Below the pieces are notes generated by a model that had not been told where the DNA came from, did not search any database, and worked only from the letters and a program-made list of their open reading frames with translations. The translations under genes and the position numbers were made by a program. A stretch of DNA of 64,000 bases. Origin: Fusobacterium varium. Lineage in GTDB: Bacteria > Fusobacteriota > Fusobacteriia > Fusobacteriales > Fusobacteriaceae. This document shows positions 1,324 to 6,572 of this stretch, piece by piece. The DNA lies in assembly GCA_900637705.1 (NCBI GenBank), contig LR134390.1, forward strand, positions 930,001 through 994,000, in the 5' to 3' direction. Numbering within the stretch: position 1 is the first letter of the stretch; the number at the start of each line of letters is the position of its first letter.

Positions 1324-2058
1324 ATGCCATTTACATTTTCGCATCCTGCAATCATATTGCCATTAAAAAAATTACCTAAAAAATATATATCAATGACAGG
1401 GCTTATTGTAGGAAGCATAACTCCAGACTTTGAATATTTTTTAAGAATGAAAAGTAAATACAGTCATACTATAAGTGGTATTTTATGGTATGATTTACCT
1501 ATGGGAATTTTTTTGGCTTTTATATTTCATAATTTAATTAAGGAAGCTTTAATTAATAATATGCCTCTTTTTTTTAAATCACGTTTTATAAATCTTAGAG
1601 ATTTTAATTGGAATAGCTATTTTAAAAAGAATTGGTATATTGTTATAATTTCTATCATAATAGGTATATGTTCTCATATATTATGGGACGGATTTACTCA
1701 TAGAACAGGACATTTTGTAAAGATATTTCCAGTATTGAAGTCCTCTATAAGACTTTTTGGAACAAAGATACCAGTATATAGAATATTACAGCATATAAGT
1801 ACTTTTTTAGGAGGAATAGCAGTAATTAAAGCTGTTATTGATTTGCCAGCAGATAAAAGCTGTACAACTCAAAAGGGAAAATATAAATATTGGATTCTAT
1901 TAATTACTGCAACACCAATAATAATGTTTTATGGCCTTTCAAAGAGAATTCCATATTACTCTTTCTGGAATTTGATAGTTAATTTTATTACAGCTTTTCT
2001 TCTTTCAATGGTATTGACCTCTTTTATATTTAGAGAAAAAAATATAAATAAAAATTAA
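1324..2058 (+). CDS. DUF4184 family integral membrane protein
   Basis: A 244-residue protein starting MPFTFSHPAIILPLKKLP, with GLIVGSITPDFEYF at about residues 27-40, which is the signature of DUF4184. It has several hydrophobic segments (about residues 55-75, 108-128, 160-175, 195-240) and histidines (HPA, ILWDGFTHRTGH) that could bind metal; the family function is unknown. An AAGGAG site lies a few bases before ATG 1324. The gene is monocistronic, between the decayed ORF and a long AT-rich gap. Length fits the family. Confidence 0.75.
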   Translation: MPFTFSHPAIILPLKKLPKKYISMTGLIVGSITPDFEYFLRMKSKYSHTISGILWYDLPMGIFLAFIFHNLIKEALINNMPLFFKSRFINLRDFNWNSYFKKNWYIVIISIIIGICSHILWDGFTHRTGHFVKIFPVLKSSIRLFGTKIPVYRILQHISTFLGGIAVIKAVIDLPADKSCTTQKGKYKYWILLITATPIIMFYGLSKRIPYYSFWNLIVNFITAFLLSMVLTSFIFREKNINKN

Positions 2059-2517
2059 ACTTTTAGAGAAGAAAAATTTCAATATAATTTTTTCTTTATA
2101 GTTTTAAAAAAGAATAAATAAAGTTAAAATAACTATATTTATTTTTATAAAAATTTATAAAATTATTAATTTTATTTTTGTTTTGATAATATTCTACATA
2201 AAATATAAAATTGAAAATTTTTTGAGCTCATGAAATTTTAGAAAAAATCTAAAAATCATGAGTTTTTTTATTTTTTTAGAAAAAATATTTATATTTATTT
2301 TAAAAACAATTATAAAATCGTTATTCTTATCATTACTTAAAAACTGTTGATGGAAAACTGTTCCTGAATTTTTGTAATCATCAGAAAGTAGTTTTTTATA
2401 AGAAGATAATAAAAGATATAAATAATACAAACCTAGAGGAGCATAAAGAAAAAATTATTGAAAAAGTAAAATGTAAAAAGACAAATTGGAAAACAAAATA
2501 TAGTAGGAGGCTGTAAA
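2059..2517. other. AT-rich intergenic region, one terminator-like hairpin
   Basis: 459 bases with no convincing gene. A minus-strand ORF in 2194-2430 has no ribosome site and low-complexity composition. The only clear structure is the hairpin at 2227-2270. Confidence 0.6.
2227..2270 (+). terminator. Intrinsic terminator-like hairpin
   Basis: CTCATGAAATTTTAGA (2227-2242) pairs with TCTAAAAATCATGAG (2248-2262) with a one-base bulge and a five-base loop, followed by seven T (2263-2269). It lies 170 bases past the DUF4184 gene. Confidence 0.6.
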
Positions 2518-2629
2518 ATGGCAGGAGAAAATCAAATTTTACATAACTTCTTTGGGAACAATAGACAAGGACAGAAGAGTATCTGATGAAGTACTAAGAG
2601 AGAGAAAAAATAGAGTATTAAAAGGTTGA
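2518..2629 (+). pseudogene. Small broken ORF with strong ribosome site
   Basis: TAGGAGG (2503-2509) precedes ATG 2518 at good spacing. In the starting frame the product is only 22 residues. One frame over, the text becomes highly protein-like (FYITSLGTIDKDRRVSDEVL, then RERKNRVLKG) and stops at 2627-2629. A +1 shift near 2533-2537 would give a basic protein of about 36 residues. Given the many indels in this window the gene may be intact in the organism. I do not recognise the family. Confidence 0.35.
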
Positions 2630-2652
2630 AAAAACGAGCTTTTCGCTAAAAA

Positions 2653-2678
2653 GTTCTTGTTTATACATAAAGGCGAAC
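2653..2678 (-). repeat. 26-base near-palindromic element, copy 1
   Basis: Read on the minus strand this element matches copy 2 (2804-2829) at 22 of 26 positions. The core TTTATACATAAA is itself almost palindromic and the ends are GTTC and GAAC. It may be an operator for a dimeric regulator or a hairpin in the leader RNA. Confidence 0.5.
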
Positions 2679-2803
2679 ACCTTTCTGATAACTTCCCTAT
2701 CATTGTACTCTTTAAATTTATAAAAGTCAACATAAAAGTTTTGGGAGGGGAACGGGGTCCAAAAAATGAGGTGTTAAAAATTGGGAGGTTAGAGCGTCTG
2801 AAA

Positions 2804-2829
2804 GTTCGCTTTTATGTATAAAAGGGAAC
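2804..2829 (+). repeat. 26-base near-palindromic element, copy 2
   Basis: Arms GTTC/GAAC and TTTTAT/ATAAAA flank a two-base centre, giving 11 paired positions with one mismatch. Copy 1 lies 125 bases upstream in opposite orientation. Confidence 0.5.
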
Positions 2830-2959
2830 TTTTCTCAGTTACCAGCTTAATCTCTACAAATAAATTCTTAATTTTAATTTGAATTTTAGAGCAAAAAATT
2901 GAAAAAAATTTAAGAAAATTTAAATAAAAAATATATAAAAACAAACTTGGGGGAGAAAT

Positions 2960-5900
2960 ATGATTGAAAAGATTATGAAAGCAGTAAAAAAGGGAAACAA
3001 AAAGAGAAGTAAAAACATAACAATAGGAGCAGTAATAGGATTTTTACTGTCATGTACAAATATCATAGGTGCTGAAAAAGAGATGGCAGGGTTAGAAATA
3101 AAAAGAGAAAATGGAAATCTAAATTTTACAGCATTATCAGGGGGAGCATCACCTAATACTTCTGTAGGAGAGAATATAAATGAATTTTATAAATACAATA
3201 CATTTAAAAATAATGTATATACTAATAATTCAGCAATATCAGAAAAAGTTTCTTCCAATCTTCAAAATTCCTATGGAATAAAACTGTCTTTACTGACAGA
3301 AAATTTTACAATTATAAATGAAAATGTAATAGGGGTAAAGAGTGAGAAAGGTTCAAATAATATTGGGATAAATATATCAGATTCAGCGATAGAATTTACT
3401 ATTAAAAATAATGGATTTATTTATTCAGAAAGAGGGAGCCAGACAAGTTCAGGGATAAAAATAGACAATAACATAATAAAAACAAATATAGAAAATGAAG
3501 GAATTACTTCAGCAAAAGTAGATTCCCCTTCCAAAGCGATAGTAAAAGGAATAGAAAATAATGGAAAAAATTTAGAAATAGCTAATCATGGAGTGATTTA
3601 TGGGGATTCATATGAAGGGGAGGGAATTGGTATACATAATAAAGGAGAGAATTTAAAATTATTAAACAGTGGAATAATTTATGGAAACTCAAGTATTCCT
3701 AAAAGGAATATAGCTGGGATATATGAGAACGGAGCAAATGGAAGTATAAAAAATACAGGAATGATTTTTGAAACTAGTACAGGAAATAATATGTCACATG
3801 GAATTTTCTGTACAAAAGAATTGGATATTTTAGAAAATGATGGAGTAATTTATTCAATAAAAAAGAGTTCAGGAAATTCTAGTTCAGGCTTGACATTTAG
3901 TACATCATTAAGTAAAGGTGAAAAAATATTAAATAATGGGATTATATATGGAATTAATGATGATGGACTTAATAATGAAAATTTAAATGGATATGGAATA
4001 AGTAATGAAAAAAAGGTAATATTTCAAAATTAATAAATACAGGGATTATATATGGAAATAAATATGCTATTAATAATAAAGATATTTATAATAGTTGTGG
4101 AAAAATAGATTCAGGAGTTAACTATGGATTACTTATAAGTGGGGGAGATGAAATAGCAGATGAAAGTATTACTTTTGTGGAAAGTAATGGAAGTAGTAAT
4201 GAAATAGAAAATAATGGATTGATTTTTACAGTTGATGAAAATAGAGTATATACAAGTAAAAATGAATATAAAAATAATTTTGGAACAGAAAAAACAGTAA
4301 GCATAAATGGAGAGAATTATAAAATTTTAAATGTGTCAGCAACAATAAAAGCTGATGGAGAAATAACCGATTACCAATCCTTAGAGTTAAAAAATGGAAA
4401 TAATAATTACGACAAACATATACTTAATGGAGTAGAAAAAACTCTTGTAATAGAAGAAAGAGGAAATGTTGTAAGTAATTCAATAGTTAATGGATATGAT
4501 GATGCCATAGATATGAAAGAAAAATCAGATTTAAAACTGCAAAATACTAAGGTTAATTCATATGGGAAAGCTATAGCTATGGCAGGAAATTCAGAACTCA
4601 CAATAGAAAATTCTATAATTAATGGAGGAGCTTTAGGGGGTAGAAATAATTCTAATACAGAACTTCCTACAATAGGAATAACTGGAGATAATAATAAACT
4701 TATTCTTGAAAAAAATTCTATTGTTAATGGAAATTATAAAGATAAAGATGTAATTAATATTACTTCAGTAATAAAGGTTGAAGGAGATAATAATGAGGTT
4801 ACTCTTTTTGAAGGTTCTGTTGTTAATGGAAAAATGGAAGCTTCAGGAAACGGCAATACTCTTAATTTTTTTGAGAATGTGGAAGGAATGAGAGCAGCTG
4901 GAACTAAAAAAATAAATGTATTACATGACATATCTGGATTTGATAATATTGGAATTAAAGGCAATGTGACACTTTTTGAAGGAATGTCAGTAACAGGTGT
5001 AAATTCTATAAAAATAGGAGAGAACAGCACTTTGAATTTAAGATTAACTGATACTTTTTCAGGAAACTTAGCAGATGCAGAGTTTGATGATGATGAAATT
5101 ATAGTAACCAGACCTTCTCATGCACTTCAAAATAATGGAGAAAAATTAGTAATAACTGGGGAAGGAACTGACAAAGATACAATAGGGAGTATAAATTTTA
5201 TAACTGATAACATTGGTAAACGTGCAAAATTAGATATGACAGATATTTATATAGAAAACTTGTATATAAGAGCCAGCTCAGCAATAGACAGTGCAGTATT
5301 TGACGAAGGAAAGGAATTAATCCTAAGTGCAGGAACTTCTTTAGATGATTTACATTTAGATAAAATATACAAATCAGAGGCAGTGGATAAACCAGAGCCG
5401 CCTTCTAAACCTTCAAAGAAGAGGTATAACTCATTAAATAATATTTACAAAGGGATATACAGTAGTAAAGAGGATAACCTAAATGCTTTAAGAGTTCTAA
5501 TTTCTTCTAATTTAGGAAATAATTATGATGAAAACATGAGTGATGAAGAACAACTTAAAATCTAATGAGCTACTTAGGAAGTATCTATACAGAAACTCTA
5601 TATTCATTTTCAAGCGAACTTTCAAGAAAATCAGCAGGAATGTTTAGAGATATAGTGACAGAAAATCAATTTAGATCAAACTTAAACAGATGGCTGGTAA
5701 TGGGTGGACTTACTCATGCAGATGGAGGAACTAAAGATAGCTACTATGGACAAAATTATCATGAAATTGATGGTGGAACAGCAGATGTAGATGTGGATAT
5801 GAAGCTTACTGGAGCTTATGTCCTGAGTAAATATGGATATTCAGAAAATGTATCATTAGGAGTAACAGTAGGAGGAAACAAAAGTGAAGCTAAACTTCCA

Positions 5901-6572
5901 ATGTCAAAAGTAAAAGGAAACAGTGGATATATAGGAGCATTTGCAGAAAACTACAGAGGAAACCTTACACTAAAAGCTGGAGCAGGAATTCAATATTCAG
6001 AATATGATGCTAATAGAGCAACACTGGGAGGACATAGCTACAATGATAAATATTCAGATATGGCATACGATATTTATCTAAATGGAAGATATTCTCACAA
6101 TATTGGGAATAATTTATTCTTAGAACCATATGGAACACTGTCATATACATATGTAGACCAAGAAGGTACAGATGAAGGAAGCAAGGTTCTTGCAATAGAA
6201 ACAGATTCAAAATCATTTGACTATACAGCAGCTAAAGTGGGAGTAGACCTTAAAAAAGTAATCCCACATGAAAAAGGAAAGAGTACATTGTCAGCAGGGG
6301 TAAGCTACACAAGACTTCTTACTGGGGCAGATGAAGAAAATATTACAGGAAGATTTAAAGGAAAAGATGCAAGTGATTTTGATATTCTAGTTCCTCACAA
6401 AAATGAACATAGCATAGGATTAAATGCTAAGTACGCACTTGAACTTGAAAGTGGAATTCTGTTTGATGTAAAAGGAAGCTACTCATTAGAGAGAGATTCA
6501 CATAATGGAACTGGTAAAAACAGAAACAAAAGTGAATGGATAGTAGGAGCAGGATTAGGGTATAAGTTCTAG
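2960..6572 (+). CDS. Type V autotransporter, frameshifted twice in this assembly
   Basis: Reconstructed length 1204 residues. Residues 1-38 are an extended signal peptide (basic KKGNKKRSKN then a hydrophobic segment ending IIGA). The passenger (about 40-860) consists of degenerate repeats around NNGIIYG and NSGIIYG, typical of a beta-helix adhesin. The last 280 residues or so form the outer-membrane beta-barrel, ending in GLGYKF with a terminal Phe as barrels require. Breaks: loss of one base in the A run 4008-4014 and another at 5557-5560; reading resumes in frame with repeat text continuing (KLINTGIIYGNKY after the first). Expected role is surface adhesion or aggregation; substrate unknown. 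A GGGGGAG site precedes ATG 2960. Confidence 0.85.

Follow-up and report, generated by a model that had tools for sequence, protein, structure and literature searches.

Paired inverted sites before an autotransporter gene of Fusobacterium varium as the probable ends of a promoter-inversion switch that recurs across the genome

In the fimS switch of Escherichia coli type 1 fimbriae, worked by FimB and FimE, a promoter lies between short inverted repeats and the recombinase is about 200 aa long. fimS is a single locus with its recombinases encoded next to it, whereas the switch that we propose for Fusobacterium would occupy many loci and be worked by a distant candidate of similar size. In uropathogenic E. 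coli, the ipuS/UpaE system joins an invertible promoter element to an autotransporter operon, with tyrosine recombinases shared between switches, according to the accessible text of the report (PMC6083910). An invertible promoter, a tyrosine recombinase and an autotransporter are common to ipuS and to the Fusobacterium switch; however, that text describes three switches in the ipuS strain, with recombinase genes near the element, while in Fusobacterium we count 22 pairs in one genome, with the candidate gene encoded at a distance (PMC6083910). For Bacteroides fragilis, the accessible part of another report describes how one tyrosine recombinase (Tsr0667, and likewise Tsr19) flips several distant surface-gene promoters, and how the serine recombinase Mpi acts on invertible surface promoters genome-wide (PMC4747536). 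The Tsr targets are outer-membrane protein clusters and polysaccharides, whereas those in Fusobacterium, a member of another phylum, are mainly autotransporters; Mpi resembles the Fusobacterium set in its genome-wide surface promoters but differs in being a serine recombinase (same part of PMC4747536).

In F. varium Fv113-g1, 44 autotransporters have been reported, of which two were raised and six showed relatively high expression in one medium, and the accessible text leaves the control of the remainder unexplained (PMC5720691). An earlier report suggested that Fusobacterium autotransporters are subject to phase variation, its accessible part giving no promoter-inversion mechanism (PMC6346709). 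A literature search by titles and abstract openings, which took in few subscription papers, returned no account of genome-wide promoter inversion in Fusobacterium among the papers listed. Switches of this kind are familiar from fimS, ipuS/UpaE and Bacteroides Tsr; as far as that search reaches, this one is new for the genus. If true, a genome-wide set of mostly-OFF switches would explain both silent adhesins and mixed cultures, and would add a case from the Fusobacteriota to the Bacteroides master-invertase systems.

The window, that is, the whole stretch of 64,000 nucleotides analysed here, spans positions 930001-994000 of a one-contig F. varium genome of 3,302,398 bp (G000). The features of the locus, numbered within the window, are as follows.

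2653-2678, plus strand: putative left (distal) recombination site, GTTCTTGTTTATACATAAAGGCGAAC; outer arm 2653-2662, core ATACAT 2663-2668, inner arm 2669-2678
2679-2803, no strand: 125-bp segment predicted to invert; 13 further copies in the genome, which all share its orientation relative to the gene
2702-2730, minus strand: promoter-like TTGACT-17-TACAAT; -35 at 2725-2730, -10 at 2702-2707
2759-2769, plus strand: CCAAAAAATGA, conserved inside 17 of the 74 segments
2804-2829, minus strand: putative right (gene-proximal) recombination site, GTTCGCTTTTATGTATAAAAGGGAAC; inner arm 2804-2813, core 2814-2819, outer arm 2820-2829
2960-6572, plus strand: autotransporter gene in three open frames (2960-4033, 4177-5565 and 5565-6572), with the beta-domain in the last

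A sequence-only reading of this DNA had described two nearly palindromic 26-base elements here, and its geometry holds, with exact placement: the sites are inverted, 125 bp apart and identical at 22 of 26 positions, and the right core, ATACAT on the minus strand, is identical to the left. Since both sites are nearly self-complementary, the pair forms a 76% direct repeat as well. Within the window, the 12-base core at up to one mismatch is ordinary (4 found vs. 4.2 expected), and its only 2 exact copies are these sites. At genome scale, 49 matches to the whole-site pattern at up to two mismatches, where the reversed pattern has 0, place the observation far beyond chance. The promoter-like sequence is sigma-70-like and faces away from the autotransporter (OFF as sequenced). 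Singly it is not above chance, since the region holds 7 promoter-like sites vs. 5.5 expected; the case for a promoter is its recurrence, with conserved position, across loci. PF03797 (autotransporter beta-domain) matches the frame 5565-6572 at 1.4e-25, while the family search found no match for the frames 2960-4033 and 4177-5565; the split over three frames points to a decayed gene or to small assembly errors. No Rfam family reached its gathering score in the window, and a terminator scan of 2050-3000 found none. Pieces of window 2495-2640 match sequence upstream of other copies, where they are more widely spaced, so the window locus has lost upstream DNA that those copies retain.

The sequence-only reading had pointed to other autotransporters as places where the motif might recur, and a genome search bears this out. 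The 49 sites, which comprise 22 counted pairs, half of locus L035 and four partnerless sites within the pattern limit, occur mostly as inverted pairs ahead of genes for autotransporters, outer-membrane proteins or HU-like proteins. A 521-bp query recovered the whole segment at 13 other loci, giving a family of 14 copies with the window's own, each followed by an open frame with the N terminus M/VIEK..K.VK, which is preceded in L002 and L011 by an HU-like frame. Behind other pairs of this genome we found PF03797 in L032, L034 and L036 and an outer-membrane beta-barrel domain in L033; the 1210-aa gene of L038 has no Pfam match. Among 12 genomes of the genus, sites at up to one mismatch number 47 in G000, 24 in G008, 40 in G009 and 42 in G010, with none in the other 8; at up to two mismatches, the four hold 49, 31, 47 and 49, and the other 8 hold 0-3 (reversed-pattern controls in the genus 0-3). 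Outside the genus, each of 49 genomes has 0-2 sites at up to two mismatches (controls 0-4). One pattern match in the viral_contigs set (L163), with neither partner nor similarity to the loci, was taken as chance.

For comparison between sites, 74 pairs were oriented with the gene to the right (22 from G000, 11 from G008, 21 from G009 and 20 from G010), the gene side being assigned manually according to the nearest long open frame, a choice that is weak for L037, L105, L107, L108, L111 and L115. Outside the 74 stand L035 (site mismatches 3 and 2), L101, which overlaps with L100, an additional 116-bp pair of L100 whose promoter points away, a widely spaced pair in L125, and the loci with one good site, among which L086, L106, L109, L114, L118, L122, L132 and L144 have a possible partner with a divergent end.

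Tyrosine recombinases require an exchange core of 6-8 bp that is identical in both sites, while the arms may differ; the core of serine invertases is 2 bp. The sites analysed here consist of a 10-base arm, a 6-base core and a second 10-base arm, and the left core equals the right in 73 of the 74 pairs, as compared with a mean of 19.4 and a maximum of 31 among 10,000 shuffled pairings, statistics that are optimistic since the loci are related. At positions 11-16, left and right disagree in 0, 0, 1, 1, 0 and 0 of 74 pairs, where shuffling gives 11.0, 2.0, 42.8, 32.9, 0 and 7.6; positions 12 and 15 are nearly invariant and therefore carry little information. Agreement at positions 9, 10, 17, 24 and 26 is as in random pairs, and positions 21 and 22 disagree in 10 and 9 pairs yet agree above all 500 shuffles. 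Per base, left and right disagree at a rate of 0.0045 within the core, 0.18 within the outer arms and 0.11 within the inner arms. Judged from the sequences, this confinement of matching to positions 11-16 is the signature of a tyrosine-recombinase exchange core. The objection that the loci are kin is answered in part by the 14-copy family, whose left cores differ (ATACAT in 8, ATCTAT in 4, ATGTAT in 2) in step with the right ones, 13 of the 14 pairs agreeing (shuffle P 0.0002). A Hin/Mpi-type serine invertase was rejected, since the matched core of 6 bp is wider than such an enzyme needs and a search of the genome revealed no small serine recombinase, its one PF00239 match lying in a 456-aa frame. 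Only in L009 (genome 1564473-1564649), whose upstream flank resembles that of L011, do the two cores differ (ATCTAT against ATACAT); its switch is predicted to be locked.

Three segment families other than that of the window include homologous loci that have collinear flanks but carry the segment in opposite orientations. Among the matches listed, and over most or all of the segment length, L119 is reversed relative to L034 (85.5% over 173), L120 (90% over 153), L127, L128 and L129, L131 relative to L133, L137, L138, L139, L143 and L148 (76-80% over 116-133), and L149 relative to L140 and L141 (76.7% over 210). Reversed segment matches number at least 206, many of them short, AT-rich or self-palindromic, and we relied on long ones whose flanks had been checked. 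The flanks of L149 and L140 match both upstream (98% over 150) and downstream (93% over 251), as do those of L119 and L120 (82% over 152 and 86% over 250) and those of L119 and L034, the latter from the window's genome (84% over 146 and 81% over 194). L131 and L138 match at 94% over 50 and 82% over 129, both at some distance from the sites, and L131 and L133 downstream only. Since the compared loci are paralogues or orthologues, these cases speak of inversion in evolution between such sites, not within one culture; the window's 14-copy family includes no inverted copy in the window genome.

Promoters in the 74 segments were scored strictly, by at least 10 of 12 consensus matches, with shuffles that preserve base composition only. 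A first, looser scoring had given 49 promoters away from the gene, 4 towards it (L037, L105, L111 and L119) and 21 undecided, including L131; the scheme was made stricter after this result was known, and the strict version is used here. It finds a promoter in 58 of the 74 segments, always on one strand and never on both, as compared with 242 of 3,700 shuffled segments on either strand, and no strong promoter in the remaining 16. Four promoters point towards the gene (L037, L105, L111 and L131) and 54 point away. The window genome contributes 19 away, 1 towards and 2 segments without a promoter, and in the 14-copy family all 14 point away. The genes at the towards-loci are HU-like in L037, a sugar transferase (PF02397) in L105, without a Pfam match in L111, and in L131 a MIEEMMK... 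frame as in the autotransporter family.

We consider it highly probable that the window sites are the ends of a phase-variation switch that acts by promoter inversion and is worked by a tyrosine recombinase, most likely a 198-aa protein encoded in trans. This enzyme would bind both 10-bp arms of each site, pair the two sites and exchange strands across the identical 6-bp cores, thereby turning the 125-bp segment round. After inversion (ON), the promoter would face the autotransporter, and transcription would cross the right site and reach the start codon after a further 130 bp or so. Both the flipping at the window locus and its effect on expression are what we infer from the sites and their homologues. 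One enzyme may serve about two dozen switches in the window genome, most of them sequenced OFF, and we propose that cells would consequently express different subsets of surface proteins. The excess of promoters facing away counts against active switching, since it is a bias that switching need not produce. More tentatively, and on balance doubtfully, the recombinase and about two dozen default-OFF promoters could control much of the autotransporter repertoire in this clade of Fusobacterium as a form of combinatorial antigenic variation, with HU-like DNA-bending proteins, encoded first in some of the switched operons, feeding back on inversion. HU-like frames lie within 2.5 kb downstream at 14 of the 74 loci (PF00216 for the L002 frame); the feedback itself is speculation.

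Other readings of the sites share part of this evidence. The sequence-only reading had offered a recombination target for phase variation or a pair of operators for a dimeric, DNA-looping regulator: the former gains strong support from the promoter inside, the matched cores and the inverted homologues, and the latter finds no support of its own. Nearly palindromic 26-bp sites, paired before surface genes, would suit operators of a segment that does not invert, but the asymmetric centres of operators need not match, and here the 6-bp centres are equal while the arms differ; with inverted segments at homologous loci as well, we regard this reading as highly unlikely. Those same opposite orientations, and the matched cores, argue against a fixed promoter for an antisense or upstream transcript, with the autotransporter promoter elsewhere, a reading that the 54 promoters facing away would favor but that we find very unlikely. 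As for a non-autonomous mobile element (MITE) with inverted ends as transposase sites, the many copies of a unit of about 177 bp and three one-site loci resembling empty sites are in its favor. However, the segment families are unrelated while the site layout is constant, the similarity of copies continues into the gene, which indicates that whole loci were duplicated, and in the loci examined copies sit only at matching positions before genes, so that a MITE appears extremely unlikely.

Inversion by a different tyrosine recombinase, either a 189-aa protein or an Xer-type enzyme, is a less probable reading that still deserves some weight. The window genome has nine PF00589 matches, eight above the cut-off and two in proteins of 189-198 aa. 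The 189-aa protein (1408056-1408622), also a small PF00589 protein, occurs at 91-100% in all 4 site-rich genomes, and the paired sites resemble Xer dif sites. However, its family extends, at 56-94%, to 9 further genomes of the genus, including six with few or no sites (G001, G002, G003, G004, G006 and G011). The 198-aa protein (genome 358180-358773; PF00589 at 4.2e-22) is the best candidate for the invertase. Its alignment with XerA-type structures takes in the arginine, HxxR and tyrosine motifs, and among 61 genomes relatives of this protein with at least 75% identity occur only in the site-rich G000, G008, G009 and G010. Since these four are closely related, the co-occurrence is suggestive only and may reflect shared ancestry; G003 has a relative at 51% yet no sites. 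The genome_contigs set yielded a single relative, at 25% identity.

No site lies near the 198-aa gene in the window genome, and a switch beside the gene itself was rejected, the repeats there being weak and AT-rich. Seven of eight 16-kb stretches around recombinase genes lack a site within 3 mismatches, while L156 has a pair. The genome also carries, at 1140660-1141127, a broken relative (57%, with internal stops) that is some 4 kb away from the sites of L034. The plasmids of Fv113-g1 encode relatives at 54-57%, and no site within 3 mismatches was found in the plasmid stretches L161 and L162. On pFV113-g1-1 (L161 20001-24268), the relative at 57% adjoins an annotated autotransporter, the site pattern being absent from the stretch read.

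Decayed remnants of site and segment lie at two polysaccharide-type loci, L039 (~5206-5263) and L040, at genome positions 624205 and 2005352. The sites of L106, L109, L132 and L144, which seem to stand alone, may each be paired with a sequence about 150 bp away whose outer end differs and is GGGCGC-like, perhaps a second site subtype. L015 (1504-1529), L016 (1620-1645) and L019 (1570-1595) each retain a single site and autotransporter-like flanks, while the segment and its switch promoter are gone, and look like deletions between sites.
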